Assembly (NCBI RefSeq): GCF_003991905.1
Contig: NZ_RSCL01000014.1
Span: 124,001 to 188,000 of the forward strand
DNA length: 64,000 nt
Origin: Dulcicalothrix desertica PCC 7102
Lineage (GTDB): Bacteria; Cyanobacteriota; Cyanobacteriia; Cyanobacteriales; Nostocaceae
Reading direction: 5' to 3'
Part shown: in pieces, positions 1 through 64,000 of the stretch
How the letters are laid out: each line of letters begins with the position of its first letter
Numbering within the stretch: the stretch's first letter is position 1
Position numbers and translations under genes: made by a program
Notes under the pieces: generated by a model
Databases searched by the model: none
What the model was told of the DNA's origin: nothing
Seen by the model: the letters and a program-made list of their open reading frames with translations, nothing else

Positions 1-89
1 CCAAATAAACTGGGAAGAAAACAGGCAATTTTTTTTGTCTTCATAGCTTTACTCACAAGATATTACTAAACTTTTATTTATTGAAAATA

Positions 90-1241
90 TTATGAAATTA
101 TGTCTTTGAGGTTATATTTATATTTTTCAAGCAAAACTAATTTAAATAAATTTTCCCATTCACTTAATATTTTTTCTATACTAAAGCGTTCCGTTACCTC
201 TGGTGCGTAAGTGCTTAAACGTTGTCTAATTGTTTCATCAGACATTAAATGATCCATAGTTTTTGCCAACGATAAGACATCTTCGCTCGGTACTAAAATT
301 CCATCTATACCATCACGAATAATTTCTCTGGGTCCGCTGTGACAATCAGTTGAAATTACAGGTAATCCACAAGCCATTGCTTCACCAAGAGCCATTGGAA
401 AAGCCTCATGTCGGGAAGACATGACAAATAATTTTGCTCTCTTTAAAATTGCAAATGGATTGTTTATAACCCCTACAAAAACTACTTTACCAGATAAACC
501 TAGATTTTCTTTCATTTCTTCCAACTCGTCATATAGTTCTCCTTTTCCTAATATCAATAGCTGCCAGTCCGGATGAAGATGAGCAATTTTAGCAAAAGCA
601 GATAATAGGATATCAAATCCTTTTTGAGGTAGTAATCTTCCCATTGCTACAACCCATTTTTTTCCTGGGTCAACGTCTCTATTCAGAAAATTAATAATTT
701 CTTTGTTGTCTTGTTTGTTTGGCAATATAAAAGGATTATAAATGACTGCCCTTTTACTTTTTGCTAGCCAATCGAAAGCACAATCTACTCCCTTACTTAC
801 GCTCACAACTCGATCTGCATAAGGATAAGAAAGACGTCGTAGCAATTCCCATATTCTTCCGTAAGAAAACATTTTTGGGTCTGAGTGTTCCGTTACAAAC
901 ACAGGTAATTTACTATGGAACAAAGAAACTATTGTGAGGATATTTGTTGATGTTAAGTGTGAAAGAACTATATCTGGTTTAGTAGAAATTATAGCTTGTC
1001 TTAACTTGATTAAACGGTGCAAATTGTTGTAAAGAGCTTGAAAGATATTTATAGAATCACTCATAATCCCTAAAGCGACCCTAATTACACCCTCTGGCAA
1101 GCTGTAAAAATCTGTCTCTCTCCCGTAAAGCGTGATTACTGTGACTTTATGTCCCCTGTCAATTAATCCTTTTGCAATTAATACTACAACTCTTTCTGCT
1201 CCACCACTATATAGCGCTGATACTACTAATGTAATATTCAT
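90..1241 (-). CDS. Family 4 (GT-B) glycosyltransferase
   Basis: A 383-residue protein with the two-domain pattern of retaining GT4 glycosyltransferases, which transfer a sugar from a nucleotide donor to a lipid-linked or polysaccharide acceptor at the cytoplasmic face. The N-terminal acceptor domain has the glycine-rich loop SGGAERVV (residues 12-19). The C-terminal donor domain starts near GRLLPQKGFDILL and carries the E-x7-E motif in HEAFPMALGEAMACGLPVIS. The ATG shares an ATGA overlap with the stop of the upstream flippase gene, so the two are translationally coupled. With the epimerase/dehydratase further upstream this looks like an exopolysaccharide or lipopolysaccharide operon. Donor and acceptor sugars cannot be read from sequence. 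Confidence 0.9.
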   Translation of the reverse strand: MNITLVVSALYSGGAERVVVLIAKGLIDRGHKVTVITLYGRETDFYSLPEGVIRVALGIMSDSINIFQALYNNLHRLIKLRQAIISTKPDIVLSHLTSTNILTIVSLFHSKLPVFVTEHSDPKMFSYGRIWELLRRLSYPYADRVVSVSKGVDCAFDWLAKSKRAVIYNPFILPNKQDNKEIINFLNRDVDPGKKWVVAMGRLLPQKGFDILLSAFAKIAHLHPDWQLLILGKGELYDELEEMKENLGLSGKVVFVGVINNPFAILKRAKLFVMSSRHEAFPMALGEAMACGLPVISTDCHSGPREIIRDGIDGILVPSEDVLSLAKTMDHLMSDETIRQRLSTYAPEVTERFSIEKILSEWENLFKLVLLEKYKYNLKDIIS

Positions 1242-2617
1242 AAATTTACCTCACTTTTACTATTACTAGTGATTTCTTTCAAATACTTAAAAGAGAATAA
1301 GAGTAAAAAAATAAATGACACTAAATAAACAATACTAGTTGATAGAGCAATACCTTGAATACCGAAGAAATGCATTAATGTATAATTACCTATCACATTA
1401 ACTATTAAGTTTAAAGCAGAACCCCACATTAAAATACGATTTTTTTTGATAGAAATTATTAATTGAACTAGAAAAACTGCTCCAACATAGAAAGGAATTT
1501 GCAAGGCATAACAATTCTGAATTTGGGATACTAATTGAGTATCTTCCGGTGTAAATGAACCTCTCTGTAAAAGTAATTTTACTATTGTCTCAGAAGCCAA
1601 TAATAATAATGCCGTAAATGGCAAAGTCACAAGAAATATTAACCTTAGATAATGCTTTAGTGTGTGTAAAACACCTTGCCAATCATGGTGAGCAACCATT
1701 TTAGAAAAATAGGGAGTTACTGCGGTATTTAGCGCTGTGGTAGTTAAGAATATTGGCAATACAACCACCTTATCCGCATAATTCAGTGCTGCTACACTTC
1801 CTGGAGCTAGCATTGCTGCCATTGACTGGTCTACTATACCAGTACTACACATTAAAAAAGCAGCAGTAACAGATGGTAAATATTGAGCAACTACTTGACG
1901 CAAGTTTTTACTAAAACCATGCCATTTTGGTAGTACCGAAATCCCCTGCCTTTTAAGTTCTAGCCCCAAAATTATGATCTCTAATGTCGTACCGCCAAGT
2001 AACCCGGCAACTAAGGAAAAGGTTTTCCAAGACTCTAAACTTAGTAGGAATACTATAGTTGCTGCTGGTGTTAGTGTTGGAGTAAAAGCTGAAAGAGCAA
2101 AACGCTCTCTCGCATTCAAAATGGAACTAAAAATTATGATACAACCACTAATTAAAACAAATGGCGATACTGCATAAATTAAATGAAAAGTCAGTTCTGT
2201 TTTTTGTGTATTAAAACCTTTCGTAATTAAAGGTACATAGATTGGCGCAGCTACTACTATTAAAATAGCCGTAATAACTAATAGCGACAATGCTAGAGAC
2301 ATAGCTCCAGATAACAAAGATTGAGCTGACTTTTTGCCTTCTTTTTCCAAAACTTGAATGTATGTTGGTACTAAGGCTTCATTTAATGCTCCTGCAACAA
2401 TATTAATGATAAAAAAAGGAACCATTATAGCAATAAAGTAAGCATCTAATTCATCACCAGTACCAAATTTCCAGGCAACTACTAATTCTTTAAGAACAGC
2501 TATCCCTTTGCTAAATCCAACTCCTAGACCAACAGTAATTGCTGCACCGAGTATTTTTCTATTAGTTGAACCAGTTGTCAGTCTATTCCATAAACTCAGT
2601 ATTTTTGTTAGATACAT
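1238..2617 (-). CDS. murJ: MurJ/MviN-type lipid-linked oligosaccharide flippase
   Basis: A 459-residue polytopic membrane protein of the MOP superfamily, MurJ branch. Visible signatures are an early glycine-rich helix with 'GFSKGIAVLKELVVAWKFG', the segment 'DELDAYFIA', and 'NEALVPTYIQVLEKEG', all typical of MviN proteins. It is shorter than housekeeping MurJ (usually above 500 residues). Its position between a CapD-like dehydratase and a GT4 transferase suggests that it flips the lipid-linked repeat unit of a surface polysaccharide rather than lipid II, but this is inference. Its TGA stop overlaps the ATG of the downstream glycosyltransferase by four bases (ATGA). The gap to the upstream dehydratase stop is about 30 bp, so one transcript is likely. 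Confidence 0.85.
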   Translation of the reverse strand: MYLTKILSLWNRLTTGSTNRKILGAAITVGLGVGFSKGIAVLKELVVAWKFGTGDELDAYFIAIMVPFFIINIVAGALNEALVPTYIQVLEKEGKKSAQSLLSGAMSLALSLLVITAILIVVAAPIYVPLITKGFNTQKTELTFHLIYAVSPFVLISGCIIIFSSILNARERFALSAFTPTLTPAATIVFLLSLESWKTFSLVAGLLGGTTLEIIILGLELKRQGISVLPKWHGFSKNLRQVVAQYLPSVTAAFLMCSTGIVDQSMAAMLAPGSVAALNYADKVVVLPIFLTTTALNTAVTPYFSKMVAHHDWQGVLHTLKHYLRLIFLVTLPFTALLLLASETIVKLLLQRGSFTPEDTQLVSQIQNCYALQIPFYVGAVFLVQLIISIKKNRILMWGSALNLIVNVIGNYTLMHFFGIQGIALSTSIVYLVSFIFLLLFSFKYLKEITSNSKSEVNL

Positions 2618-2646
2618 GATGCTCTATATATTTGACTCAAGCTACT

Positions 2647-4689
2647 TTAAGCACTTTTTGCCTCTGTTCTCGGATACTTATTAATATTATTTAACGGTAC
2701 CTTGTCATTAGCTGAAACATCGACTTGTGGATTGTTGTCCAAATACTTAGGTTTATAACCCGGCGCCACCTGTTCAAGCAAAAACATAATAGAATTAGCA
2801 TCATTCTTAGCAGCAGCTTGGCAAAGTGCATTCACAGCAGTATTCAAATTATCAGGAATTATTTGACTTGCATTCTTCACCATGAATAGCTTTTCATGCT
2901 CTGTAGGGTCATACTCTTCACCTTCTATAAACAACTCCTCAAATAACTTCTCTCCCGGTCGCAACCCTGTAAACACAATATCAATATCTTTATTGACCTC
3001 ATATCCCGACAACCTAATTAACTCCTCTGCTAAGTCTACAATTTTCACTGGTTGACCCATATTTAACATCAAAACTTCACCTCCTCTACCAAGTACTGCT
3101 GCTTGCAACACTAATTGCACCGCTTCAGGAATGGTCATGAAGTAACGACATATATCTGGATGAGTAACTGTTATAGGACCACCTGCGGCAATTTGTTTCT
3201 TAAATGTAGGAACAACACTGCCACGACTTCCTAATACATTACCAAAACGCACTGCTACATAAGGCTTTCCACTTTGCTTCGCTGCTTGCAATACCAACAT
3301 CTCAGCCACTCGCTTACTGGCGCCCATCACATTAGTAGGGTTCACAGCTTTATCAGTGGATATCATTACAAAGTGATTAACATTATATTTCAAAGCTAAT
3401 TCAACTAAGTTTCTAGTACCCACAACATTATTACTTACCGCTTCAGCAGGATTAACTTCCATTAGAGGTACGTGCTTGTGTGCAGCAGCATGGAAAACTA
3501 CATCCGGCTGATGACGCTCAAAGGCGTGCTGTAAACGGTCTCGGAAGCGAATATCTGCGATAAACGCCGATAAACGTGGGTTATAACGTAAACTTTTACT
3601 TTCCTCTTTGAGTAGTTGAATTACCTGCTCAAGCTCCTGCTGAATGTTGAATACCGAATTCTCACCATGTCCAACTAATATAATTTCACTAGGACGACAT
3701 TTAAGAATTTGACGACATAATTCACTACCTATCGAACCTCCGGCGCCTGTAATTAGAACCTTTTTGCCTCGAATAAACTTTGCAACACGCTCAGTTTCAG
3801 TTTGGACAGGTTCACGACGTAGCAAGTCTTCAATTCTGACATCGCGAATGCTTTCAACGCGAACACGACCATTCAAAATCTCATTAAGTCCAGGTACTGT
3901 ACTGGTTTGAATATTAGCCTTTTTACAAATATCAACAACATCTCGAATTACTTGCCCTGCAACACTTGGCATCGCAATAATCGCTCTACGAGCATACAGT
4001 CTTTTAGCCGCTTCAGGAATCACACTTCGGGCGCCGACAACACTCACACCGCGAATGCGTGTATTTAACTTTTGTGGGTCATCATCAATAAAAGCAACCG
4101 GACGCAAACCAAGATGAGGATTACGCTGCATCTCTTGCACTAAAGACACTCCAGCATTTCCGGCGCCGATAACTATAACACGCTCCTCTAAATCAAAACT
4201 AGCACGTCGCTGTTGAAGACGTTCAGTGACTCTAAAACTAAAGCGAAGTCCACCAATCATCAGACATGTAAGCAATCCATCAATGAATGGTAGTGACTCT
4301 GGTAGTCCATTTACAGTTGCTGGCAAAACAAATATCAAAGTATCAAATAGTATTACCTGAACAATTACTGCCGCAGTTGTAAGAACACCTACATATACCA
4401 GTTCCTCAATACTCGCATAGCGCCAATAGCGACGATAAAATCCAAAGCTCCAAAAAACAGCTATTTTAATTACTAAAAATAGCCCTGTTGCTATCGGTAA
4501 ACTTTCTGCATACGATTTTATATCAATTTTTCCGTCTAGACGCAAAAGTAATGCTAGTAACGGCGTTATGGAAAATATTAATACGTCAACAACAAATAAA
4601 TCACGATTGCGTAGCTTTAGCAACAGTTTTGAAACTATATTTAAAGTATTTTTGACTAACCAGTGAGAAACGAAAAATAAAATGTTCAT
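2647..4689 (-). CDS. Membrane-anchored nucleoside-diphosphate-sugar epimerase/dehydratase (CapD/WbpM/PglF family)
   Basis: A 680-residue protein of the polysaccharide biosynthesis SDR family, which typically acts as a UDP-GlcNAc 4,6-dehydratase. The first 160 or so residues form four hydrophobic segments. Next comes a CoA-binding/Rossmann-like domain (VIVIGAGNAGVSL), then the catalytic extended SDR domain starting at KKVLITGAGGSIGSEL. The active-site stretch STDKAVNPTNVMGASKR has the Met-x3-Lys variant seen in this family. I chose the ATG at 4689, preceded by AGAAGGA; the reading frame stays open for 16 further codons upstream but those look non-coding. It is the first gene of the operon with the flippase and glycosyltransferase. 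Confidence 0.92.
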   Translation of the reverse strand: MNILFFVSHWLVKNTLNIVSKLLLKLRNRDLFVVDVLIFSITPLLALLLRLDGKIDIKSYAESLPIATGLFLVIKIAVFWSFGFYRRYWRYASIEELVYVGVLTTAAVIVQVILFDTLIFVLPATVNGLPESLPFIDGLLTCLMIGGLRFSFRVTERLQQRRASFDLEERVIVIGAGNAGVSLVQEMQRNPHLGLRPVAFIDDDPQKLNTRIRGVSVVGARSVIPEAAKRLYARRAIIAMPSVAGQVIRDVVDICKKANIQTSTVPGLNEILNGRVRVESIRDVRIEDLLRREPVQTETERVAKFIRGKKVLITGAGGSIGSELCRQILKCRPSEIILVGHGENSVFNIQQELEQVIQLLKEESKSLRYNPRLSAFIADIRFRDRLQHAFERHQPDVVFHAAAHKHVPLMEVNPAEAVSNNVVGTRNLVELALKYNVNHFVMISTDKAVNPTNVMGASKRVAEMLVLQAAKQSGKPYVAVRFGNVLGSRGSVVPTFKKQIAAGGPITVTHPDICRYFMTIPEAVQLVLQAAVLGRGGEVLMLNMGQPVKIVDLAEELIRLSGYEVNKDIDIVFTGLRPGEKLFEELFIEGEEYDPTEHEKLFMVKNASQIIPDNLNTAVNALCQAAAKNDANSIMFLLEQVAPGYKPKYLDNNPQVDVSANDKVPLNNINKYPRTEAKSA

Positions 4690-4737
4690 ATCCGTCCAGT
4701 CCTTCTGGGAAAATCCGCACGCACTTCCACGAAACAC

Positions 4738-5772
4738 ACGTTCATAAACATATGTTCAAGCTAAGTGCGCTAGTATAACTAACCGTTTGGTAGCAAACTT
4801 TGTAGTTGTAAAACTTACACAATTAAAACTCGACTAGTTATTAAAACTTAGCCCATTGATATGCATTTAAAATTGATTTAAGTGCCTATGCAAGCTATTC
4901 TAAAGCTGCATCGTTACAAATACTAAAGCAGCTATATTCTAGTAGATGGGTAGATAACCTGCACTCAAAAACTTAAAAAAACAGGGTTTCTAAGCAAAAT
5001 CGTCGATTTTATTACAATATCTCAACTCAGAAACCGGGTTTCTAGACTTTTGTTACTTTTATGTGTTGTATTTAAAACGAACATATGATTATGCACCCTC
5101 AGACACTACACCTTTCTTAAGTGATAATACTTAAAAAAATACTTTTCAAACATGCTTTTACTAGTTTCTGTCACCGACACTAATCATGAACTAATGTAAT
5201 TACGACAGATACCTCAAAACTAAAATGCTCTGAGTTCTAATTTATTTGTACCAAGCAAACGTTCAGAAGTCGTAATTAACGCTTAACTGTCCCCACTGCC
5301 TATGAGTGAGAACTGAGATAGCTAGAACGCTACTTGGTATGGAAAGCTAACACCCAAACATTGCGCTTTGTTAAGCTTTGTTCTGTGTCTTAATCTTTCC
5401 TATTTTTTTGTAACAGTTTTATCTAAATCAAGTGTGCCATTTTGGCATAACTTTTATGAATGGTGTCTTACTCCTCTAAGCAAAAACTACACATCAACTA
5501 ATATCAGGTTACAAAAAATCATATTATCTTTAAGACTCTTATAGCTTTACAACCTCATACGGTTAAAAAATTAGTAATATTAATTACGTGTATCTGTCTA
5601 AAGCAAGATATAAAATGCAAAATTAAAATAAAAACTCACCAATCATAAATTAACAAAACCACACAAGTAAAAATTATGACTCCAATAAATAAAGCTAATC
5701 ATTGCAGAATACCATTTTGAATCTAAACAGCATTCCACAATGAAACGTTCAATATATTCAGTATTTACTTGC
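4738..5772. other. Gene-poor intergenic stretch of about 1 kb
   Basis: No convincing coding region on either strand. It is very AT-rich and lies downstream of ilvN and upstream of the sugar dehydratase, both on the minus strand, so it should hold the operon promoter near 4700-4800. The only clear structure is one copy of the dispersed AGAAACC element at about 4983-5043. No tRNA or recognised small RNA was seen. Confidence 0.5.
4983..5043. repeat. Dispersed ~66-bp AGAAACC palindromic element, copy A (one end degenerate)
   Basis: The right end is the 15-bp near-palindrome AGAAACCGGGTTTCT at 5029-5043. The left end is a shortened AGGGTTTCT at 4983-4991. Internal sequence is AT-rich. Size and end structure match the other copies in this window (9413, 20788, 28142, 28239, 58037, 62073). 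Confidence 0.7.
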
Positions 5773-6291: not shown

Positions 6292-6362
6292 GGTAGGCAG
6301 CGGCAGCAACCTTAAAGATAAATTAAAGTTTAGATAATAATTGTAAACTTAAAGATGTTTCC

Positions 6363-10171: not shown

Positions 10172-10194
10172 CACAATAACCCATATATATAGAT

Positions 10195-27633: not shown

Positions 27634-28166
27634 ATAAAAAAGTTTTTTATCCATATCCATTACAAAGAGTTTGGCAAGTACTTACCAATCAAAAAGCGCT
27701 TGCAGCTTGGTTAATGGAAAACGACTTTGAAGCGCGTCTTGGACACAAATTTAAATTTATCTACTCATCGCTACCAGGGATGAACGCGCATATAAATTGT
27801 GAGATTATAGAAATTGATGAACCAAGGCGCCTTTCATTTACCTGGAAAGATAACTTAATGTGTCAGCCTTCAATTGTAACTTGGACATTAGAAGCAGTAG
27901 ATGGTGGAACTATATTAAAACTAGAACATCGCATTCTTGAAACCGCTTATTCACAACAACGTCAAGAACATTACAATTTACAATCAAATAAATATATGCC
28001 TTCAGCCTCATTGAATCGCCAATTAGCAACTTCCACTCTTACTTATCCTAGCTACGGCTTAAATAACAACTTTGAACAACCCATAAGCATTATTATGAAC
28101 GCTTATTTCGATGGTGGATGGGAAGACAAACTTAAAAATCTAGAAACCTGGTTTCTTCTTGACTAA
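27618..28166 (+). CDS. SRPBCC/AHSA1-domain protein
   Basis: A 182-residue protein of the START/Bet v1-like SRPBCC superfamily, AHSA1 branch. It has the typical entry KKVFYPYPLQRVWQVLTNQKAL and core IDEPRRLSFTWKD, TLEAVDGGTILKLEHRI. Such proteins bind a hydrophobic ligand and are commonly encoded next to an ArsR regulator, as here. A ribosome site (GGAGGAGAAT) lies inside the end of the arsR-like gene. The last residues (LETWFLLD) and the stop are read from the first unit of a 97-bp tandem repeat, so the native C-terminus may have been altered. Confidence 0.85.
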   Translation: MLRHLNKKVFYPYPLQRVWQVLTNQKALAAWLMENDFEARLGHKFKFIYSSLPGMNAHINCEIIEIDEPRRLSFTWKDNLMCQPSIVTWTLEAVDGGTILKLEHRILETAYSQQRQEHYNLQSNKYMPSASLNRQLATSTLTYPSYGLNNNFEQPISIIMNAYFDGGWEDKLKNLETWFLLD

Positions 28167-28328
28167 GCACGACGATTTCCAACATTAAAAACAGAAACCA
28201 GGTTTCTTGTATATGAATAATCCTTCACAAAAAAATCTAGAAACCTGGTTTCTTCTTGACTAAGCACGACTATCTCCAACATTAAAAACAGAAACCAGGT
28301 TTCTTGTATTATGAATAATTCTTCACAA
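28134..28328. repeat. 97-bp tandem duplication carrying the AGAAACC element (copies D1, D2)
   Basis: Two direct units, about 28134-28230 and 28231-28328. Each carries AGAAACCTGGTTTCT and AGAAACCAGGTTTCT 51 bp apart (28142/28193 and 28239/28290), followed by ATGAATAAT(C/T)CTTCACAA. The ends hold a compensated T/A change relative to the CCGGG form. The duplication copied the SRPBCC stop and the first codons of the ClpP-like gene. A decapitated start (MNNPSQKNL...) remains at 28213. Confidence 0.85.
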
Positions 28329-29053: not shown

Positions 29054-29127
29054 CAGCCCTTTCAACGCGAACATAAGCACTACTAGGGCGGCGCCTGTAA
29101 GCCGCTCCTAGCACAGATTATTAGCGA

Positions 29128-29292
29128 GCATCCAGTGAAGGGCAGAAACACTCAAACAGCGTGGCGCCTATGATAAAAACTTAAATTCTAAATACGGGTA
29201 GTTACAATCACTACGACAGATACTACAAAATTCTCACAATATTCATTTAAACTTGATCAATTCAATTAAGAATAATTATTAATAAACTCAAA
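29128..29292. repeat. Left arm of an internal ~160-bp inverted repeat
   Basis: Reverse-complement match to 30165-30319, including GCATCCAGTGAAGGGCAGAA and TACGGGTAGTTACAATCAC, with scattered mismatches. The left arm carries a ~10-bp insertion (TGGCGCCTAT) that adds a GGCGCC site absent from the right arm. Confidence 0.8.
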
Positions 29293-29293
29293 T

Positions 29294-30164
29294 CTATAAC
29301 AAAAAATATATTCAACACAAGCGGAGTTTACAAGCTTTAGCTTGTAACGATGCCACGGCGCCTACTCGTCAACGTACTCAAAGCGATTGATACTGTAAAA
29401 TACCAATACAGCATCGTAACTTGTTTTCAATATTTGTATATTTTACTAACACCAATGCTCCGTAGCATTGATGTTTTTAGGCTTTTAGAAAGATATTAGA
29501 TTTCAATGGCAAATAAGCCAAGAGCGATAACTTATATCTTGCACCTACATTTTTGCATGTAATATTTATTACTAAATTTTAACTATGCTCACACCCGCCT
29601 ATAGCTGTAAGCTATAGGCTAATAGCACAAGTCCATTAAAATGGACTAAAAAATATAGTAATATTAGAAACGTGCTTTATTCTAATTAAAGATTTATACG
29701 TAGAGGTGCAAGATGTGAGATAAGCACAACGAACTAAACAATTAGTTATTCACAGTTATTTATAATACCCCAACATGATGGGGGAGAGCTACCGCCCGTC
29801 CCCCAAACCCCCTCCGGTTACCTATTTTTGACACTCCTTGAGTTCACTGTCGTTCACTCAGTCGGTCAAAAACAGGTTTGAAAAAAACAAGACTATAAAG
29901 AGCTTTGGGCAAATAATAACAGTTCAAGGCGCGCCCCGTAAGTTTGTTTCTCTCGTTCGTTTAATACTGGAATTTGGACTATGCACTTTTTTACCACAAA
30001 TATCTCCCCACAACAGACCACAACAGATGACATTCATCTTCAAAGAAGACCACAAGCTCTCCGGATACTATCTGGTTTTGGTGTGCTTAAAGCCACACTG
30101 TTATTTTTAGTTTTTTTTGCTACTAAATCTTCATTGAGACGGGGATTCTTTATTTTTTTAAAAT
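29294..30164. other. Hairpin-rich, probably non-coding core between the inverted arms
   Basis: About 870 bp. Hairpins seen are ACAAGCTTTAGCTTGT (about 29330), CAATGCTCCGTAGCATTG (about 29453), CCTATAGCTGTAAGCTATAGG (about 29599) and AGTCCATTAAAATGGACT (about 29630). The last two resemble the subterminal hairpins of IS200/IS605-type elements. Open frames at 29838-30169 have no recognisable protein. It is likely a graveyard of element ends. Confidence 0.5.
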
Positions 30165-30319
30165 TTTGAGTTTATTAATAATTATTATTAACTGAATGAA
30201 TCAAGTTTAAATGAGTATTGTGAGATTTTTGTAGTATATGTAGTGGTGATTGTAACTACCCGTATTTAGAATTCAAGTTTTTATTCGCTGTTTGAGTGTT
30301 TCTGCCCTTCACTGGATGC
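30165..30319. repeat. Right arm of the internal ~160-bp inverted repeat
   Basis: Inverted counterpart of 29128-29292. It lies directly upstream of the transposase start (30382), so it is probably the genuine left/promoter end of the IS and the other arm is its inverted copy. Confidence 0.75.
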
Positions 30320-30381
30320 TTCCGATTATTAGGGACGACTTTAAGGTATTCTTGACAATATCAATATTACAGTGCATCAAA

Positions 30382-31759
30382 ATGTTATCTACAGTGTTTG
30401 AGCAATTTGTAGAAGAAAGTCCCCTCAGTGTGATGGCACGAATCTTAATGGAACGTATTTTTATGCCAGAACGCTTGGATAAAATATTTGAGGCACATGC
30501 GACTGTTCAATATCAGCAAGATTTATTGTTTTCAAGTCAGGTCGATTTAATGAGTTTGGTTGTATGTGGAATTCATAAGTCAGTCCATGCTGCTTATAGA
30601 GCGAAAGCAATAGAAAAAATAGTAAGTACAACCGCATTATATAACAAGCTCTCTGGAATTGAATTAAATGTAAGTCAAGCATTATTACGAGAAACAGCAA
30701 GTGATTTAATGTATTTAATTCAAGCAATGGGTGGAGAACAAGCAGATTTATTACCAGGTTATAAACTGAAATTTGTAGATGGTACCTGCCTTGCGGCAAC
30801 AGACCATAGACTAGATGCAATCCGTGCTTATGCAGCTTCTTCATTACCAGGTAAAGCAATAGCAATATTAGACCAACCATCAAAATTAGTAACAGATGTT
30901 TTATTAGTTGAGGACGGTCACGCTCAAGAGCGCGCGTCATTTAACCAAATACTTTCTTTAGTTAAACCAAAAGAAGTTTGGTGTGGAGACCGTAATTTTT
31001 GTACAGCAAAGTTTTTGTATACAATCATATTGAAAGGAGCCTTTTTTGTCATTCGTCAACATGGGTCATTAGGATTTAAAGAATTAAGTGAATTAAAGTA
31101 TTCAGGAGAAACTGAAACAGGAAAAGTATTCGAGCAGAAAATAGAAATATCATATGAAGGAGAAATCCTACAACTCAGACGGATTCTGGTAAAGCTAAAT
31201 GTACCGACGCGAGATAAAGAATGGGAAATAGCCATTTTTACTAACTTACCAAGTAGCGATGCAAGCGCAGTCGAAGTTGCTGAAATATACCGCAATAGTT
31301 GGATTCAGAGAAACACTTTTTCAAACTGTAACTGAGAACTTTAATGGAGAAATTCAAACTTTGGCTTATCCAAAGGCTGCGTTATTCTCTTTTTCAATGG
31401 CATTAGTTGCATACAATATACTTGCAACTTTACGAGGCGCCTTGGGAAGTGTACATGGAGTTAATAAAATTGAAGTTGGCTTATCTGATTTTTATTTGGT
31501 AGATGAGATTCAAGGAATATATAGAGGGATGATGATTGCGATACCACCACCAAAGTGGGAAGTGTTTGGTACATATTCTCTTGACCAAATAGCAGAACTT
31601 CTACAACGACTTGCAGATGGTGTACATTTGAAACGTTTTTTAAAAGCAACGAGAGGTAAGAAAAAAAAACGAGAACCTTTAATAGTTAATAGTAACCATC
31701 GCCATGTTTCTACCGCACGACTTTTAGAGACCCACCAAAAAAAGAAATCACGAAGTTAG
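30382..31759 (+). pseudogene. IS4-family transposase, disrupted by a 4-base insertion
   Basis: A DDE transposase. The first frame, from ATG 30382 (MLSTVFEQFVEESPLSVMAR), carries the first Asp in KLKFVDGTCLAATDHR and the second in EVWCGDRNFC. It reaches EIYRNSW at 31302 and then runs out of frame, stopping at 31335. The second frame resumes as ETLFQTVTENFNGE and ends at 31759. Removing CAGA at 31306-31309 restores YRNSWIETLFQT, the expected Y-R-E signature that holds the catalytic Glu. The frameshift thus separates the third catalytic residue from the rest, and the enzyme is probably inactive unless frameshifting occurs. Confidence 0.88.
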
Positions 31760-51945: not shown

Positions 51946-52472
51946 GATTATCTTCCTTTGAGCTAGTTTCAAAAAATCTGTGTTATTTCATTTTTAGCAC
52001 GTTTTTATAGTGCTGATTAGAGTTAAACACTTTTTATTTCGATAATTTGCATAGATTTTCTTAATAGTTTGTTTATATTTGACTTGACAAAGCTTGTATT
52101 ACCCACTCTTGCCAGCGGGTATCAATAGAATATCTTCCTATATGTATATTGATGTTTTTGAATGCTTACAAATGGAAAAATTAAAAATAATTTATGAGTA
52201 ATTACTTAGTTGCTTGGTAATTTATTAACTAAAATGTATTCATTTAACTAAGTATGGAATGGCGCCGTTAGCTAGAATTTGCTGCGGTAAAAATCTTAAA
52301 GCCACATTTTTCGTCATCACAACAATAGTGGCGCCTGAGTTAATTTAAGAAATATGTGTTAACTAAGTTTTAGCACTTTTAATTAGTGCTATTGTGTTTA
52401 TGACACTTTTGATTTTGAATAAATTGCATAAATTTTACCAATGGTTGTTGCCGATAAAGTAGTGGAGTGAGT
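51946..52472. other. Intergenic region between the P-type ATPase and the AAA-like gene
   Basis: About 530 AT-rich bases with promoters for both divergent genes. A short hairpin AGCACTTTTAATTAGTGCT lies at 52373-52391. Two GGCGCC sites lie in this non-coding stretch (52261, 52332), so the hexamer is not confined to genes. Confidence 0.4.
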
Positions 52473-58299: not shown

Positions 58300-59187
58300 G
58301 TGGACTTGATCAAAAGAATCTACAACCGAGTTCTGAAACATGTATACACAATACCTTCACTGGAAAAATATAGTGACTCTATCTATAAAACAGCAGTACA
58401 ACAACATGCTGTTAACCTACCACCAATGTCCACGGGAGATTTGAAGATAGTCGAGACGTTGAAAAATGAAGGAGTGGCAATTAGTTCATTAGAAGAGTTA
58501 GCAACTCCTTCCTCGTCAAAGATGACCTCAGCAGCAAAAAAATTAATGCCATTAATTCCATGTATAACAAAAAAGAATGAATTTGTAGTTCATGCTACAA
58601 ATGAGCAAATAATGGAGTATCCAGAAATATTTCTTTGGGGACTAGAAAGACGTATACTTAATATTGCAGAAAATTACTTTAATCTTCCTGTTGCATATCA
58701 TGGAGCTTATTTTCGTAGAGATATAGCTAATAAAGTACAGCGAAAGTCTCGCTTGTGGCACTTAGATGGTGAAGACAGGCAGGTATTCAAAGTAATTATC
58801 TACTTACACGATGTTAACGAAGACCAAGGGCCGTTTCAGTATATCCCTGTTAGTACTACTCAAAAACTAGTTGAGCGACTTAAGTATAGACAAGGTTATA
58901 TTCAAGACACCGTAATGCAGCAAAACGTTTCTTCGTCAGATTACAAGTCTTGCTTAGGGGTCGCTGGCACAGTTATATTTGCTGCTACGAGTCATATTTT
59001 TCATCGCGGCAAGATACCAGTAGCATCAGACAGGTTTTCACTTTTCTTTGATTACACGTCACGTTTACCAAAATATCCGTTTGTCAATCGTTACTCATTG
59101 CCACAAGACTATTTACTCTCACTCTCAAGAAAAATTACACAACACCAACTGCAAAGCTTACTATGGCAAAATTATAAAGTTAAGTAA
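58300..59187 (+). CDS. Phytanoyl-CoA dioxygenase-like Fe(II)/2OG oxygenase
   Basis: A 295-residue protein starting at GTG 58300. The double-stranded beta-helix motif is seen in SRLWHLDGEDRQVFKVIIYL (HxD), GPFQYIPVSTTQKLVERL, and ATSHIFHRGKIPVASDRFSL (distal His and Arg). So the Fe-binding H-x-D...H triad and the 2-oxoglutarate Arg appear present. Members act on lipids and natural products. The substrate is unknown. Single gene, tail-to-tail with the EamA transporter, about 10 bp apart. Confidence 0.75.
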   Translation: MDLIKRIYNRVLKHVYTIPSLEKYSDSIYKTAVQQHAVNLPPMSTGDLKIVETLKNEGVAISSLEELATPSSSKMTSAAKKLMPLIPCITKKNEFVVHATNEQIMEYPEIFLWGLERRILNIAENYFNLPVAYHGAYFRRDIANKVQRKSRLWHLDGEDRQVFKVIIYLHDVNEDQGPFQYIPVSTTQKLVERLKYRQGYIQDTVMQQNVSSSDYKSCLGVAGTVIFAATSHIFHRGKIPVASDRFSLFFDYTSRLPKYPFVNRYSLPQDYLLSLSRKITQHQLQSLLWQNYKVK

Positions 59188-59196
59188 CAATATGCG

Positions 59197-60099
59197 TTAT
59201 TTGAGGTAAAACAATAAAGCGATTCCTGCGATTGCAATTATTACTCCTATGACTGCCCTAATACTTACCTTTTCACCCGTCCACAATGCTAACGGTAGTA
59301 TAAATATTGGACTAGTTTGTAATAATGTTGAAGCAATTCCTACAGGCGCCAGTTTAATTGCGGTCTGTTGTAGCCAAATACCTAAGTAAGTTCCGCAAAA
59401 TGCCGCGAAGCATGTGGCAGCAACTACACGCCCTTGTTTCGAGTAACTAAGTATAGAAGTTTTAGATTTATCTTGCTGCCATACAATTAAAGGCAATAAA
59501 AATAATGTCGCTGCACTTAACCGTATTAAAGCAGCCCACAATGGGTTAATATTTGTGTTGACCAACGCTGCACGCGACAAAACGGCGCCTGATGCATTGG
59601 CAACTGCCGCAAGTAGTCCAAATATCACCCCACGCAAAGGCAACGAAGAATTAACTTCCTTCTCGGTACGTTCACTAATTACCCAAGCGACTCCCAAAAT
59701 AGTTAACAGTACACCACACCAAGCACTCGCATTTAATCGTTCGTGTAAAAATATTAAGGCGAATACTGCCGTCATTGGTGGCGCCAGTGTTTCTAAAAGT
59801 AATAACCTCCTAGCACCCAAACTATTGATTCCTGCCAAAAATGCAGTATCACCTAGTCCAATACCTATAACCCCACTCAGCAAAAGTAAGCATAAAGGCA
59901 CAGGAGCTATTACTAAAGATAGTTTTCCTGTGGCAACTATTGTGATTAAGAGTAAAACAATTGCAATTATTCCCTTGATTAAATTTAAGTGCAGTGGTGG
60001 AATATGGGCGCCAACACGTCCATATACAACCGACGCAAAAGCCCATAACACCGCTGCAACTAGCGCTGCAATCTCACCCTGGTAATTTATCACCATCAA
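59197..60099 (-). CDS. EamA-family (DMT) transporter
   Basis: A 300-residue inner membrane protein with ten predicted helices in two EamA repeats: VAAVLWAFASVVYGRVGAHI ... FLHERLNASAWCGVLLTILG and GLLAAVANASGAVLSRAALV ... WTGEKVSIRAVIGVIIAIAG. DMT carriers export metabolites such as amino acids. Start MMVINYQGE at 60099. Substrate cannot be assigned. Confidence 0.92.
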   Translation of the reverse strand: MMVINYQGEIAALVAAVLWAFASVVYGRVGAHIPPLHLNLIKGIIAIVLLLITIVATGKLSLVIAPVPLCLLLLSGVIGIGLGDTAFLAGINSLGARRLLLLETLAPPMTAVFALIFLHERLNASAWCGVLLTILGVAWVISERTEKEVNSSLPLRGVIFGLLAAVANASGAVLSRAALVNTNINPLWAALIRLSAATLFLLPLIVWQQDKSKTSILSYSKQGRVVAATCFAAFCGTYLGIWLQQTAIKLAPVGIASTLLQTSPIFILPLALWTGEKVSIRAVIGVIIAIAGIALLFYLK

Positions 60100-60305
60100 A
60101 ATATAAACAAAATATTAAAATTACTATATAGCAATTTGCATTTCTTGGAAATATCTCATAAATTAAGATAAAGACACCAATAAATATTAGCACTCACCTC
60201 TATTAACTGCTAATTTTCTATCTAATAATATTTAGCACTGACGGTTTGTGATTGCTAATTTAAACCTGATTATTTGTTTTAACAAATTACCAAGAGGACA
60301 AAGAT

Positions 60306-60650
60306 ATGAAATATGCATTTAATATCGTTGGCGTATCTCCTGTTTTAGATTTTTTTAATCATCAACAAAAGTCTTCAGTGTCTGGACAACCACAAGGTAT
60401 AGAATATTTAGGGGCGCCTGATTGTACACTCGACGCATTTCTCGAAACAGTCGAATCGGTTCCCACAAAAGAATCTTGGGAAATGGATGAAGTCGTCAAA
60501 ACAGTAATTGACTTTTGGATGAATAATTCAGAAAGCATCCGCTACTGGAAATTACGCTTACTCGACGCAGGTAGAGACAACCTCATCGTTACGAGAGTTG
60601 CAGAAATCCAAGCTTTGCAAGCTGAGTTTGATATGTTGTTTCAGAAATAG
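60306..60650 (+). CDS. Conserved hypothetical cyanobacterial protein (114 aa)
   Basis: A 114-residue soluble protein starting MKYAFNIVGVSPVLDFFNHQ, with GIEYLGAPDCTLDAFLETVE and a helical C-terminus (DEVVKTVIDFWMNNSESIRY, TRVAEIQALQAEFDMLFQK). No catalytic motif is visible. The sequence resembles conserved cyanobacterial proteins of unknown role. A GAGGAC ribosome site lies six to eleven bases upstream. Confidence 0.7.
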   Translation: MKYAFNIVGVSPVLDFFNHQQKSSVSGQPQGIEYLGAPDCTLDAFLETVESVPTKESWEMDEVVKTVIDFWMNNSESIRYWKLRLLDAGRDNLIVTRVAEIQALQAEFDMLFQK

Positions 60651-60903
60651 TGAAGAGCAGTACTGAAGTACTGCATTACGAATGTGTGTGTGGCATTACG
60701 AATGTGTGTGGTTGTATACATCTGACAAAAATATAATTTCGGGTCTGGGAAACGATTTTGAAGAATTGTTTCCCAAAACCATTGACGTTCAATTTTTGGT
60801 GTGCTATTCAAGTGACAGCTTCGATAAAAAAACGTCAGCAATTCTCACACATATATGGGACTTGCTGACAAAAGTTAACCAAATAAATCTGTGTAATATC
60901 ATC

Positions 60904-61137
60904 ATGGCACAAGACACTCACACCAGCCATTCCGAGCAAAACGAATCAGCAAATTATAAAAACCGACTAAATTCCTGGGCAATAGCTCGTATGCTTCCAG
61001 ATATGAAACGTGAAATAGTCGCGCGGTTTCGTCGTCGTTCAGATGCAGACGGACACATGCAGCTATTACTCCGGGTAACACCAGATGCGAATTTCATGCT
61101 AGTTTTTGATTGCCAAACCGAAGAAGCTGCTGCCTAG
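60904..61137 (+). CDS. Conserved small protein (77 aa)
   Basis: A 77-residue protein from ATG 60904 (AQDTHTSHSEQNESANYKNR, then IARMLPDMKREIVARFRRRS, then DADGHMQLLLRVTPDANFML). The frame is open further upstream to 60682, but that part is low-quality and overlaps a GAATGTGTGTGTGG repeat, so I place the start here. The core motif RFRRRSDADGHMQ may contact RNA or another protein (inference). A short AAGCACTTCAGTGCTT palindrome follows the stop. Confidence 0.7.
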   Translation: MAQDTHTSHSEQNESANYKNRLNSWAIARMLPDMKREIVARFRRRSDADGHMQLLLRVTPDANFMLVFDCQTEEAAA

Positions 61138-61148
61138 TAATAAGCACT

Positions 61149-61973
61149 TCAGTGCTTTCTTCCACCAAACTCCTGAATCTTCTTTACATAACCTTTCATA
61201 ACGCTTAACAACTGAGGAAGCTCATTACTTACCGAACTCACATTAATTCTCTCAGCAACAATCTGAATTTCTTCCACAGGATGTGGATAGTACTTCTGGT
61301 AAAGACCTACCAATTGAATTAACTCTTGAGTATAACGACTAGCGTGAACTAAATTACCAACAACAAGCTTGGCAGGACTAATAACTTCACGCACTAAACT
61401 CAAATTTAATTCTTCTAAAGCTAGAGTCTTTTGCTTTTGTAGTAATTCCACATACCTCTGTTCGCTTTCGTGCAAGTTAAATTCAGCTTCTTGAGATTGT
61501 TTTTGAGCTTCTTCAAGTTGTGCAAGCGTCAATGCATGTATTTTCGAGTTTGCCAAAAGTAGCTGCTGAATATCAAGCAGTTTATTACCTGTAACAACAA
61601 TCGGTTCATAAACAAACTCAGAATTTCTTGACAATGCTTGTTTTGTAGCATCAACAACCTTTGTATCGGCGCCCATAATTAAAGTATCTGATTTAACAAA
61701 ATCGTACAAGTTCTCAATCGCACGCTCGTTAAACAAACCCAAACTATAGGGACGACTCATAAACTCGAAAAAACGGCGCCTAGAAATCATCCCTGCATAA
61801 TCATGATTTTTTGTCAAGATTACCCCAGGCATTAAAGGTTCGTTGTCAAACAATTTAATTAAACTATTACCTACACAGCTTACTTCTAAACTTGTATCCC
61901 ACAGTGGTAAGTCTCCTAAAACAGAACTCAATTTCAAATTAAGTTCATCCAATCGCTGGGTTGATACATCCAT
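61149..61973 (-). CDS. Degenerate CBS-pair plus coiled-coil signalling protein
   Basis: A 274-residue protein. Residues 25-155 resemble two CBS modules (VGNSLIKLFDNEPLMPGVIL, HDYAGMISRRRFFEFMSRP; later SRNSEFVYEPIVVTGNKLL). A coiled coil (about 160-200, AQLEEAQKQSQEAEFNLHES) and a helical C-terminal region (VIGNLVHASRYTQELIQLVG-like; actual VVGNLVHASRYTQELIQLV) follow. It has no HATPase. CBS proteins of this type often feed into cyanobacterial two-component systems, and a histidine kinase lies 1.1 kb away. Function not assigned. Confidence 0.65.
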   Translation of the reverse strand: MDVSTQRLDELNLKLSSVLGDLPLWDTSLEVSCVGNSLIKLFDNEPLMPGVILTKNHDYAGMISRRRFFEFMSRPYSLGLFNERAIENLYDFVKSDTLIMGADTKVVDATKQALSRNSEFVYEPIVVTGNKLLDIQQLLLANSKIHALTLAQLEEAQKQSQEAEFNLHESEQRYVELLQKQKTLALEELNLSLVREVISPAKLVVGNLVHASRYTQELIQLVGLYQKYYPHPVEEIQIVAERINVSSVSNELPQLLSVMKGYVKKIQEFGGRKH

Positions 61974-62072
61974 AACACAGAAGATACACAGCAGATAAGA
62001 TTGTGCAACAGTTCTATCAAAATGTCTCTATGTATTTAATACATTTTTATACTTCAATCTATGATAACCCTT

Positions 62073-62139
62073 AGAAACCCGGTTTCTTAATTGAAGTCTT
62101 GTAATAAAAACAACGATTTCGCTTAGAAACCGGGTTTCT
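62073..62139. repeat. AGAAACC palindromic element, copy F
   Basis: 67 bp, ends AGAAACCCGGTTTCT (62073-62087) and AGAAACCGGGTTTCT (62125-62139). Interior matches copy E. It lies in the divergent intergenic region before the lipoprotein gene. Confidence 0.85.
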
Positions 62140-62213
62140 CAGTACCGATTTGAAAATTTATGTGTAATGATGTTGCATGTTGTATTTAATACATTTAGCG
62201 ACAGTAATTAATT

Positions 62214-63011
62214 ATGAATTTAGTCTTGAAAACTAGTTTATTAGGGATATTTTTACTAACTTCAAGTTGTTCATCACCACAAAAGGATGTAAAGCAAGAA
62301 ACCAGTACGAGCAATAATCAATCAACCCAAACAGAACAAGTAAAAGAAGTAAAATCAACTAAAGCGGTACCCTTAGCAGTCAAAGTTCCAGATAAACCAA
62401 AAGCTACTACTACAAACTCAGTAAAATCAACAAACTCATCTAATAAGCAAATGCATTTGGTGGTAGTCAGTGATGACTTGCGGTTCTTCCAACATGAAAC
62501 ACCAACATATAAATCAAGAAAGTTTGAAGTTAACCCCGACTTCCCGGCGCCTGGGAACTATACTGTATTTAGCGATTATGATAAACAGCTTACAATTCAA
62601 AAAATCAAGATTCCAGGGGATGTCCCTTTACCCACCGAACTTGAAAAATTTAGTAATACAAAAACATTATCTAATACAAAAATAACACTCTTAGCGCCGG
62701 AATCAAATCTTAAATCGGGACAACAGGTAAATTTAAGATTTGACTTGCAGGATACGAAAAATAAACAACCAGTAAAATTACAACCGTATCCAAATCAAAA
62801 AACGCTCGGTAATGCACGTTTATTTATAGTTCGCAGTTCATCACCACTCAAAACTACAGACTATATACCAGCAACGTTGCTCCAAGACTCACCCGACGGT
62901 CAAATTAGCTTTGCGTCAAGTTTTCCTCAAAAAGGAACTTATAAGCTTTGGTTACAATTTAACCGCAATAGCAAGGTCAACACGGCTGATTTTTGGGTGG
63001 ATGTGAAATAA
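62214..63011 (+). CDS. Hypothetical lipoprotein (265 aa)
   Basis: A 265-residue lipoprotein: MNLVLKTSLLGIFLLTSSCS with the lipobox TSSC. A Thr/Ser/Lys-rich tether covers about residues 22-80. The folded domain (about 80-265) is beta-rich (MHLVVVSDDLRFFQHETPTY, FPAPGNYTVFSDYDKQLTIQ, GTYKLWLQFNRNSKVNTADF). No family is named with confidence. It is followed by the ethylene-receptor-like kinase, about 70 bp apart, and could be a partner. Confidence 0.75.
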   Translation: MNLVLKTSLLGIFLLTSSCSSPQKDVKQETSTSNNQSTQTEQVKEVKSTKAVPLAVKVPDKPKATTTNSVKSTNSSNKQMHLVVVSDDLRFFQHETPTYKSRKFEVNPDFPAPGNYTVFSDYDKQLTIQKIKIPGDVPLPTELEKFSNTKTLSNTKITLLAPESNLKSGQQVNLRFDLQDTKNKQPVKLQPYPNQKTLGNARLFIVRSSSPLKTTDYIPATLLQDSPDGQISFASSFPQKGTYKLWLQFNRNSKVNTADFWVDVK

Positions 63012-63081
63012 TTACTTCCAAAGGTAGATTTGCTTTGTAGCAATAACGTTGTATCCACTTGTAAAAAGGTGGAGCATTAAC

Positions 63082-64000
63082 GTGGACTTACAAAACTTAC
63101 ACAATTTTTTCTACTCAGGTAATTTTATCCCACATGGGCATTGTTACTTGTGGAAGCCTGAGTTGGTATCGCTGCATATGCTATCAGATGTACTAATTGC
63201 ATTGTCTTACTATTCAATACCCATAACGCTTGTGTATTTTATTCGTAAGCGTAAAGATATTCCGTTTCAGAATATTTTTCTACTGTTCGGCGCCTTTATT
63301 ATTTCGTGTGGTACAACTCATATTATGGAGGTATGGACATTATGGCATCCTGACTACTGGTTCGCAGGCGCCTTAAAAGCACTAACAGCATTAATATCGT
63401 TCTATACAGCTTTAACTTTGATACCTTTAGTACCAAGAGCATTAGCTCTACCAAGTCCTGCACAGCTTGAAACTACGAACCAAGCTTTGATGATGGAGAT
63501 TATAGAGCGTAAACGTGTAGAGCAGGAATTGCGTCAGTATAAAGAACATTTAGAGGAAATTGTTCAAACTCGTACTGTTGAGTTAGAGTCAGCAAACGCA
63601 CAGCTTAGAAGTGCCAATCAAGAGTTGAACGATTTTGCTTATGTAGTATCGCACGATTTGAAGGCGCCGTTACGAGGAATTACTTCACTATCTGAGTGGT
63701 TGTTAGCTGACTATGGTGAAGAGTTCGACGAAGAAGGCAAAAAGATGGTTAATTTAATGATTAGTCGAGTTCAACGACTACATCAATTAATCGATGATAT
63801 TTTAAAGTATTCACGAGTCGGACGTGCAAAGGTTGAGAAGAAAGATGTAAACTTAAATAAAGTTGTATCTGAGTTAGTTGAAGTTTTAAGTATACCCGAA
63901 AATATTAAAGTTGAGATTCCTAATCAATTACCGACTATTAAATGCGATAAAACCAGGATTGAGCAGCTTTTTCAAAATTTGATTACTAATGCAATAAAAT
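63082..64000 (+). CDS. Ethylene-receptor-type histidine kinase (partial, runs off the right edge)
   Basis: From GTG 63082 (VDLQNLHNFFYSGNFIPHGH), 306 codons are visible. The first ~120 residues form three transmembrane helices of the ETR1 ethylene-binding domain. Asp36, Tyr43, Ile46, Pro47, Ile73, Cys76 and His80 are spaced exactly as Asp25, Tyr32, Ile35, Pro36, Ile62, Cys65 and His69 of Arabidopsis ETR1; the Cys/His pair (SCGTTH) is the Cu(I) site. A coiled linker and a histidine kinase dimerisation domain follow (NDFAYVVSHDLKAPLRGITS, DDILKYSRVG), then the start of the ATPase domain (IEQLFQNLITNAIK). No GAF or PAS domain lies between. Related to Synechocystis slr1212. Confidence 0.93.
   Translation, partial: MDLQNLHNFFYSGNFIPHGHCYLWKPELVSLHMLSDVLIALSYYSIPITLVYFIRKRKDIPFQNIFLLFGAFIISCGTTHIMEVWTLWHPDYWFAGALKALTALISFYTALTLIPLVPRALALPSPAQLETTNQALMMEIIERKRVEQELRQYKEHLEEIVQTRTVELESANAQLRSANQELNDFAYVVSHDLKAPLRGITSLSEWLLADYGEEFDEEGKKMVNLMISRVQRLHQLIDDILKYSRVGRAKVEKKDVNLNKVVSELVEVLSIPENIKVEIPNQLPTIKCDKTRIEQLFQNLITNAIK

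Follow-up and report, generated by a model that had tools for sequence, protein, structure and literature searches.

GGCGCC stands in place of the HIP1 word in one Calothrix lineage

What takes the place of HIP1 (GCGATCGC), the usual highly iterated word of cyanobacteria, in a genome that hardly holds it, and what keeps the new word there? We addressed this question in Dulcicalothrix desertica PCC 7102, using a 64-kb stretch of its DNA (hereafter, the window) for which an earlier note, made from the letters alone, had estimated about 115 copies of GGCGCC, judged that composition would give only a few, and seen no HIP1.

Abundance and placement of the two words

The exact count in the window was also 115 GGCGCC, ~35 times the 3.28 copies expected from composition at 38.6% G+C, and neither HIP1 nor CGATCG occurred there (0 copies each by exact count). 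The sites concerned are as follows.

1..64000, no strand: GGCGCC sites, 115 in total, 101 in long ORFs and 14 outside; no GCGATCGC (exact counts, positions)
52261..52266, no strand: intergenic GGCGCC, between one ORF that ends at 51972 and another that starts at 52467 (position list)
52330..52335, no strand: intergenic GGCGCC, between the same two ORFs (position list)

Both intergenic sites had been named before, the first correctly and the second at 52332 instead of its true start, 52330. Since composition predicts just 0.31 HIP1 in the window, its absence is informative only when set against HIP1-bearing relatives, two of which (G329 and G302) held 49 and 65 copies, respectively, in 60 kb sampled from each. 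Whole-genome counting, which the earlier note had proposed as a check, gave 19,393 GGCGCC in 11,419,637 bp (1698 per Mb, or ~one per 600 bases) and a single copy of the reversed control, CCGCGG, while HIP1 was found 58 times in the 11.42 Mb, compared to 62 for its own reversed control. Under an order-1 Markov model, 184 kb of the genome contained 343 GGCGCC against 14.4 expected, i.e., a 23.8-fold excess. Given this excess and the 58 HIP1 genome-wide, the genome therefore shows neither a GGCGCC count near the Markov expectation nor a HIP1 frequency typical of other Nostocales. GGCGCC stands in place of the usual HIP1 word in this Calothrix lineage.

When 384 kb of the genome was analyzed, 582 of the 677 sites lay in long ORFs and 95 outside (1.92 and 1.17 per kb, respectively), and all three reading frames were used (311/106/165), as the note had stated for sites within and between genes; ORFs here, and in the codon-shuffle and fourfold-site counts below, are open frames of at least 100 aa, greedily chosen and uncurated. 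Spacing was near random (variance/mean 0.92-1.13 in bins of 1-5 kb), and the spacing analysis detected no regular spacing or periodicity. Pairs of sites under 20 bp apart were scarce (1 vs. about 15 expected, overlap not yet being allowed for), and 130 pairs lay within 200 bp, compared to 153 expected.

Distribution across genomes and conservation between strains

GGCGCC was enriched in 7/7 genomes of the genus, at 1150-1711 per Mb, and in 0/210 other genomes of the family; no HIP1 was found in the loci standing for the other six genus genomes (L303-L308 and L114-L118). As an alternate HIP, GGCGCC has been described for Calothrix PCC 7103, a member of this same genus, and for Calothrix D253 in the part of Elhai 2015 (PMC4390886) used here, so the idea that a different iterated palindrome has taken over from HIP1 holds good but is not a novelty. 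Apart from that paper, our literature search found none with both Calothrix and GGCGCC. The same part of Elhai 2015 argues that alternate HIPs do not persist and that only HIP1 lasts; the enrichment in all seven genomes therefore speaks against this published view. New here, from sequence comparison, are an enrichment common to the whole genus, a word preserved letter by letter and a candidate methyltransferase.

Two other genomes were considered as GGCGCC cases and dropped. One (G059; 9,489 sites and the same methyltransferase cluster 0 as described below) looked like an independent, convergent second case; at its 54% G+C, GGCGCC was 4.1-fold enriched at order 1 but not above the order-3 expectation (331 vs. 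344), and the most enriched 8-mers were CGGCGCTG/CAGCGCCG and CGGCGCCG, for which reasons we left it out of the argument. The sample of the other (G136; 872 GGCGCC, control 9) held 11 copies against 26.5 expected, the enriched words being ACCGGC, GCCGGT and GCCGGC.

Comparison of strains separates the creation of sites from their maintenance. Exact GGCGCC was retained between strains at 220 of 239 sites, compared to 72-77% for controls, and at 178 of 241 in a second strain comparison, also set against controls. At fourfold-degenerate outer positions of the hexamer, 1/220 differed, compared to 782/4262 (18%), and the raised conservation was limited to the six bases, adjoining bases diverging at ordinary rates. 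The few intergenic sites (12/16 and 7/12 conserved) were not clearly more conserved. Position ratios against NIES-4105 were 0.32-0.81, which we counted against the explanation favored below. Xu, Lawrence and Durand are said to have treated selection and periodicity of HIP1 in 2018, possibly with a similar conservation test.

Changes were polarized with one outgroup in ungapped columns, and of the 264 kb of the own genome ~119 did not align to Calothrix PCC 7716 and were dropped; this gave 1 clear gain, 18 losses and 10 ambiguous changes. Because clear gains are so rare, creation of GGCGCC sites is not demonstrated. The loss ratio was 0.39 overall (17 of 43.9 expected), 0.22 at outer positions (5 of 23.2 expected) and 0.58 at the center (12 of 20.8 expected). 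Of the 18 losses, 11 were C to T or G to A changes at the center, and no change was seen more often between strains than central C/T; losses at the center were in excess over context, but not significantly so (p = 0.09). GGTGCC exceeded expectation in the own genome (1.38x) and in genus blocks (1.81x), but we rejected this as proof of deamination, since G136 shows 1.32x too. As the exact hexamer is preserved, and least so at its center, methylation-directed repair and its rival, selection, become testable.

A candidate methyltransferase and the maintenance of sites

A PF00145 search of the own genome, six genus relatives, G059, G007 and G036 yielded a C5-methyltransferase cluster (cluster 0) present in 7/7 genus genomes and G059, and absent from the G059 siblings G036 and G007. 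By family and recognition motif, the cluster 0 enzyme is predicted to be of GRCGYC (BsaHI/HgiDI) type: the genus copies carry QRR or ERR ... TI ... NRP, as in nuclease-linked relatives. The earlier note had proposed looking for a GGCGCC-specific enzyme; the candidate that emerged is instead of a type with wider specificity. Within GRCGYC, M.BsaHI modifies the central C, according to the part of PMC2413257 used here. Catalytic motifs IV, VI and VIII were intact in 7/7 copies, dN/dS was 0.05-0.17, and the own genome and G342 had one match each. The latter led us to reject, for these genomes, the second enzyme copy that Elhai 2015 (PMC4390886), in the part used here, gives as the trigger of an alternate HIP.

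Relatives of the enzyme have RE_HindVP as a neighboring gene, in a set of 125 neighborhood loci that is redundant, with some genomes counted twice. No HindVP-type nuclease was matched in a search of the whole own genome, and none adjoined any of the seven genus copies in the loci. Such a nuclease, or a piece of one, was also found in 48/66 enzyme carriers of the order (35 substantial, 13 fragmentary or broken, and 18 with none), classes being assigned from match lengths, with carrier counts transcribed by hand and 225 non-carriers left out. Median GGCGCC was 7 in carriers with a substantial match and 185 in those with none, in a comparison whose 66 genomes are mutually related and hence not independent points. 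Two observations count against a role for the solitary enzyme: solitary copies in Tolypothrix, Hassallia and Spirirestis (G353, G354 and G356) come without GGCGCC enrichment, and 16 nuclease-free carriers, with a median of 180 GGCGCC, lack the enriched word.

The explanation we favor, at a probability of roughly 0.6, is that GGCGCC is an alternate HIP fixed in one Calothrix genus and most likely kept by a solitary GRCGYC methyltransferase together with directional repair or selection. HIP1 would have been lost earlier, perhaps via a GATC nuclease, as proposed in the part of Elhai 2015 used here. In the cell, the enzyme would methylate GGCGCC at its central C, and the methylated hexamer would be subject to a directional process, either the GmeC-directed mismatch repair of the same source or selection for methylated sites, that suppresses loss and favors gain. 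Sites would leak away mainly by central C to T (GGCGCC to GGTGCC/GGCACC), the change to be expected where C is methylated. If GGCGCC is near equilibrium, the 24-fold excess would imply that S, the scaled bias, is about 3.2, for which a loss ratio of 0.14 is predicted; the observed 0.39 is a weaker suppression. A stronger version, which we put forward tentatively and would not bet on, is that a solitary methyltransferase, the remnant of a former restriction-modification system, wrote its own target genome-wide via methylation-directed repair, by molecular drive and not selection for function; if true, ~19,400 copies would be guarded letter by letter, synonymous sites included (scaled bias about 2.5-4), and the state inherited genus-wide.

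Alternatively, GGCGCC may itself serve a function (in recombination, in chromosome organization or as a protein-binding site) and be selected for it, the methyltransferase being incidental. This would give the word-exact conservation observed at synonymous sites and accords with the few gains seen. We nonetheless consider it unlikely, as the near-random spacing does not point to an ordered arrangement, conservation is not clearly higher at intergenic sites, and the same methyltransferase family in 7/7 genomes is left unexplained. More doubtful still is that GGCGCC is modified by another methyltransferase of the genus, e.g., one from a second C5 cluster (cluster 1, 370-398 aa) or of the N4/N6 kind, with the GRCGYC enzyme as bystander: cluster 1 is also in 7/7 genus genomes and our search covered PF00145 alone, but the family of cluster 0 is linked to nucleases that target GRCGYC, a pattern that takes in GGCGCC.

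Spread by short insertions, as of a mobile palindromic mini-element, was raised by an inverted repeat in the window.

29127..29313, + strand: inverted repeat, first arm (arm alignment)
30144..30320, - strand: inverted repeat, second arm, without the 10 bases (arm alignment)
29162..29171, + strand: 10 bases in the first arm only, with GGCGCC at 29163-29168 (arm alignment)

The repeat and the extra bases named in the earlier note, which took them as a hint at how sites arise, are thus real. They mark a single event, which may be an insertion in the first arm or a deletion in the second; no third copy of the arm was found among the loci compared. Between the window and PCC 7716, 21 aligned differences in GGCGCC state were found (36 further sites were unaligned), of which 5 lay at indels, 14 were single substitutions and 2 took three or more steps. 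Given these 14, and flanking bases that diverge at ordinary rates, we rejected a ~10-bp insertion as the general origin of sites and regard spread by insertion as very improbable. Vsr-type very-short-patch repair, restoring C from T in methylated GGCGCC contexts and overshooting, would match the commonness of central C/T changes, but it is yet more improbable, as a PF03852 profile search found the Vsr endonuclease gene in 0/51 genomes, the seven of the genus included (control genomes were positive in 5/14), and GGTGCC is not depleted. Lastly, the view that the excess simply follows from base composition, codon usage or protein sequence, for which Gly-Ala dipeptides slightly above expectation (O/E 1.17) and a maximal-order Markov expectation of 66 of the 115 window sites could speak (a figure raised because GGCGCC itself inflates the sub-words building that model), is refuted by the order-1 excess, by synonymous-codon shuffles (29.2 vs. 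577 seen, in excess in all three frames) and by the lone CCGCGG.

Comparison with known systems

With HIP1 gone, a new word and a candidate enzyme, the genus (PCC 7103, PCC 7716 and NIES-4105 among its named strains) is a natural replacement experiment on why cyanobacteria carry HIPs. Like HIP1 (GCGATCGC), GGCGCC is palindromic and GC-rich, occurs in and between genes at a frequency of about 1000-2000 per Mb and is tied to methyltransferases; unlike the HIP1 of most cyanobacteria, it is another word with another methyltransferase. Three features of an alternate HIP in the part of Elhai 2015 used here, a frequency of roughly 1000-2000 per Mb, low HIP1 and a predicted methyltransferase, were found. 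Set beside PCC 7103 and D253 as that part presents them (PMC4390886), our genome shares the word, the genus, the near absence of HIP1, the putative GRCGYC-type methyltransferase and the depletion of GATC and CGATCG; it differs in that it and G342 have one enzyme copy, not two, and our comparison goes further in covering 7/7 genus genomes and measuring strain-to-strain conservation of the word. With the BsaHI/HgiDI/HgiGI/HindVP GRCGYC systems, as given in the part of PMC2413257 used here, it shares the methyltransferase family and an N-TL/TL/C-TL recognition motif held in common with nuclease-linked relatives. In contrast to those restriction-modification systems, no cognate HindVP-type nuclease was found beside the seven genus copies or in the own genome, and GGCGCC is abundant here, not avoided.

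GGCGCC and HIP1 in the genome and its genus

An excess of GGCGCC and an absence of HIP1 (GCGATCGC), the usual highly iterated palindrome (HIP) of cyanobacteria, had both been claimed for the window, and both were borne out: it holds 115 GGCGCC versus 3.3 from composition, and no HIP1. Across the whole Dulcicalothrix desertica genome (11.42 Mb, 109 contigs), GGCGCC occurs 19,393 times (1698 per Mb), compared to 1 for its reversed control, CCGCGG, and HIP1 occurs 58 times, compared to 62 for its reversed control. When a 184-kb sample (the window plus six 20-kb stretches) was analyzed, 343 GGCGCC were found versus 14.4 expected under an order 1 Markov model. The other three GRCGYC words fell to 0.42, 0.25, and 0.13 of expectation, and GATC (33 observed/434 expected), GGCC (32/307), and CGATCG (0/15) were strongly avoided. 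Long ORFs contained 577 GGCGCC, compared to 29.2 (s.d. 4.2) after synonymous-codon shuffling (20 shuffles); thus, the excess stems neither from composition nor from protein sequence. The palindromes TGCGCA, GTGCAC, GCATGC, CCATGG, AGATCT, and others were also strongly avoided, with zero counts in the same sample. Two long ORFs at 90-2617 of the window, the first a glycosyltransferase, form 2.5 kb without GGCGCC and were perhaps recently acquired.

All seven genomes of the Calothrix lineage are rich in GGCGCC, with 7,475-20,380 copies each, or 1150-1711 per Mb (relatives' sizes rounded), whereas the highest of the other 210 among 217 family genomes has 1,053 versus 1,270 for the reversed control. 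The genome-wide HIP1 count within these seven covers D. desertica. Among 291 order genomes, D. desertica ranked first for GGCGCC and G059 second with 9,489, although G059 was not a clean case and was dropped as a second example. G059 (L200-L206; 54% G+C) has 74 HIP1 versus 3110-3424 in its siblings G036, G078, and G290; CGGCGCCG and CGGCGCTG/CAGCGCCG are ~25-fold enriched there, CAGCGCTG had zero counts in the sample, and another alternate HIP is possible. In G461 (L298, L299), a 10.7-Mb family member in which the candidate methyltransferase described below was not detected at the threshold applied, 40 kb of sampled sequence gave 1 HIP1, 1 GATC (versus 113 expected), and 0 GGCGCC, with 326 GGCGCC in the whole genome; perhaps HIP1 was lost there without replacement.

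Conservation of the six bases between strains

We aligned 264 kb of D. desertica contig to syntenic blocks of two relatives. Position ratios give divergence relative to a trinucleotide-matched expectation; fourfold-degenerate positions were analyzed where the rest of the codon was conserved, positions 1, 2, 5, and 6 being outer.

Table. Conservation of GGCGCC in two relatives.
Measure	PCC 7716	NIES-4105
Aligned length; identity	145 kb; 95.2%	121 kb; 84.6%
GGCGCC intact	220/239 (92.1%)	178/241 (73.9%)
Other hexamers intact	77.3%	41.9%
Hexamers with ≥5 G/C intact	71.9%	35.6%
Other palindromes intact	77.5%	41.7%
GGCGCC versus GC-rich hexamers, Fisher p	6e-14	2e-31
Ratios, positions 1-6	0.18, 0.09, 0.30, 0.53, 0.08, 0.07	0.48, 0.43, 0.78, 0.81, 0.32, 0.56
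Ratios, outside (PCC 7716: three flanking bases each side)	0.65-1.24	0.67-1.23
Fourfold, outer differing	1/220	27/204
Fourfold, central differing	9/174	31/171
Fourfold background, G/C-ending	782/4262	1509/3185
Fourfold background, A/T-ending	940/12,157	2568/9226

GGCGCC was far better conserved than GC-rich hexamers in both relatives, while no difference was observed between other palindromes and all hexamers (p = 0.85). The effect is confined to the six bases of GGCGCC. Since fourfold-degenerate positions are also protected, protein constraint cannot be the cause. The few intergenic sites were conserved in 12/16 (PCC 7716) and 7/12 (NIES-4105) cases; with controls at 73% and 38%, this is no clear excess. 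For the window alone, GGCGCC conservation was higher with five of six relatives; with PCC 7103, 30/42 sites (71%) were conserved versus 74% of all hexamers and 67% of GC-rich ones.

Using NIES-4105 as the outgroup, 133 sites were common to all three genomes and 47 to D. desertica and PCC 7716 only. The changes comprised 18 losses (11 giving GGTGCC or GGCACC), 1 gain, and 10 ambiguous cases. When flanks were required, 17 losses were found versus 43.9 predicted from context (Poisson p = 3e-6), corresponding to 5 versus 23.2 at outer positions and 12 versus 20.8 at the center (central share, p = 0.09); 1 gain was seen among 16 near-sites, with 0.18 expected. These changes show protection of GGCGCC, its creation being hardly observed. 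In a simple fixation-bias model that assumes equilibrium, the 24-fold excess corresponds to a scaled bias, S, of ~3.2, under which losses would run at 0.14 times, and gains at 3.3 times, the neutral rate. Ratios of 0.07-0.18 at outer positions in the PCC 7716 comparison agree with this value; the polarized outer ratio of 0.22 suggests an S nearer 2.5, and the overall loss ratio of 0.39 fits S ~3.2 only if the center is leaky for a reason of its own.

Of the GGCGCC-state differences from PCC 7716 within the window, 14 are a single step apart, 5 coincide with indels, and 2 need at least three steps. An insertion creating a site had also been proposed for one arm of an inverted repeat:

29127-29313, first arm, 86% alike to the second
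30144-30320, second arm

One arm does carry 10 extra bases with GGCGCC, which may be an insertion there or a deletion in the other arm; no third copy was found among the loci examined. A GGCGCC-free DDE_Tnp_1 transposase ORF (30292-31335) overlaps the end of the second arm. Elsewhere in the window lie a ~70-80-base repeat (4962-5062) with dozens of dispersed matches in genus relatives and a 79-base unit present twice (28134-28309; 97% alike, 97 bases between).

A candidate methyltransferase without an adjacent nuclease

The D. desertica genome gave 13 C5-methyltransferase matches, certain genes being matched twice. Further matches came from the six genus relatives, G059, G007, and G036, and clustering at 50% identity yielded two clusters present in all seven genus genomes. 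Cluster 1 is a second candidate. Cluster 0, also found in G059 and absent from G036 and G007, includes:

contig C4, 441736-442653, minus strand, 313-aa methyltransferase, outside the window

The search for a methyltransferase specific for GGCGCC, as envisaged in the earlier note, led instead to a candidate of the GRCGYC type, present throughout the genus. Relatives occur in 66/291 order and 62/217 family genomes. A recurrent neighbor gene adjoins the enzyme at 74 of 125 redundant loci (enzyme located in 124); a representative is RE_HindVP (E = 3e-148), the family to which BsaHI, HgiDI, and HgiGI, all of them GRCGYC enzymes, belong (PMC2413257). The genus copies have the same recognition motifs as nuclease-linked relatives, retain motifs IV, VI, and VIII in 7/7 cases, and show dN/dS of 0.05-0.17 against the D. 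desertica gene. M.BsaHI is reported to methylate the central C of GRCGYC (PMC2413257), a modification that the model of Elhai 2015 requires and that paper calls unknown (PMC4390886). A RuBisCO-like (MtnW-like) gene (L118:3460-4758) lies near the enzyme in six of seven genus genomes, the exception being HK-06, whose enzyme gene has diverged beyond the level of its genome. The suggestion that a second enzyme copy is critical (Elhai 2015, PMC4390886) fails for D. desertica and G342, with one match each. Further copies lie at L168 (FI2-JRJ7), L191 (NIES-4105 plasmid 2), and L193 (PCC 7716 chromosome), where GGCGCC density is 3.0-3.7 per kb, ~2 times that of the D. desertica genome.

RE_HindVP was found in 52/291 order genomes. 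A whole-genome search detected none in D. desertica; in the other six genus members the flanks of the enzyme were searched, and no genus copy adjoined the nuclease (0/7 with 1.5-kb flanks; 5-kb flanks also clear for five). On sequence evidence, the genus carries an enzyme of the right family that stands solitary at its locus and is under constraint. We classed the 66 order carriers as having a substantial nuclease hit (35; median 7 GGCGCC), fragments (13; median 68), or none (18; median 185, or 180 for the 16 remaining without D. desertica and G059). Thus, nuclease-bearing carriers are site-poor and nuclease-free carriers are not (substantial versus none, Mann-Whitney p = 2e-7, relatedness ignored). 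A solitary enzyme is by itself insufficient to raise GGCGCC. Tolypothrix, Hassallia, and Spirirestis genomes (G353, G354, G356) have the enzyme without an adjacent nuclease and contain 277, 259, and 144 GGCGCC. The only nuclease-free carriers to stand out are those lacking HIP1, namely D. desertica, G059, and G136 (58, 74, and 81 HIP1), and in G136 the enriched words are rCCGGy, not GGCGCC.

Maintenance of GGCGCC and known alternate HIPs

The best reading is that a solitary GRCGYC methyltransferase, together with directional repair or selection, maintains GGCGCC. The enzyme would methylate GGCGCC, directional repair or selection would preserve the methylated target, and change of the central C would be the chief leak. 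Vsr-type repair is excluded so far as PF03852 reaches. The mechanism put forward by Elhai 2015 is GmeC-directed mismatch repair (PMC4390886).

Replacement of HIP1 by GGCGCC is already known from the same genus: Calothrix PCC 7103 is described as such a genome, with two GRCGYC methyltransferases (Elhai 2015, PMC4390886), and D. desertica is a further case. G136 (L207-L213), in which ACCGGC/GCCGGT are ~9-fold over-represented, resembles the rCCGGy case of Oscillatoria PCC 10802 given in the same paper (PMC4390886). Elhai 2015 argues that alternate HIPs are sporadic and do not persist (PMC4390886); in contrast, because all seven genus genomes are GGCGCC-rich and most sites are common at 85% nucleotide identity, the GGCGCC alternate HIP does persist.
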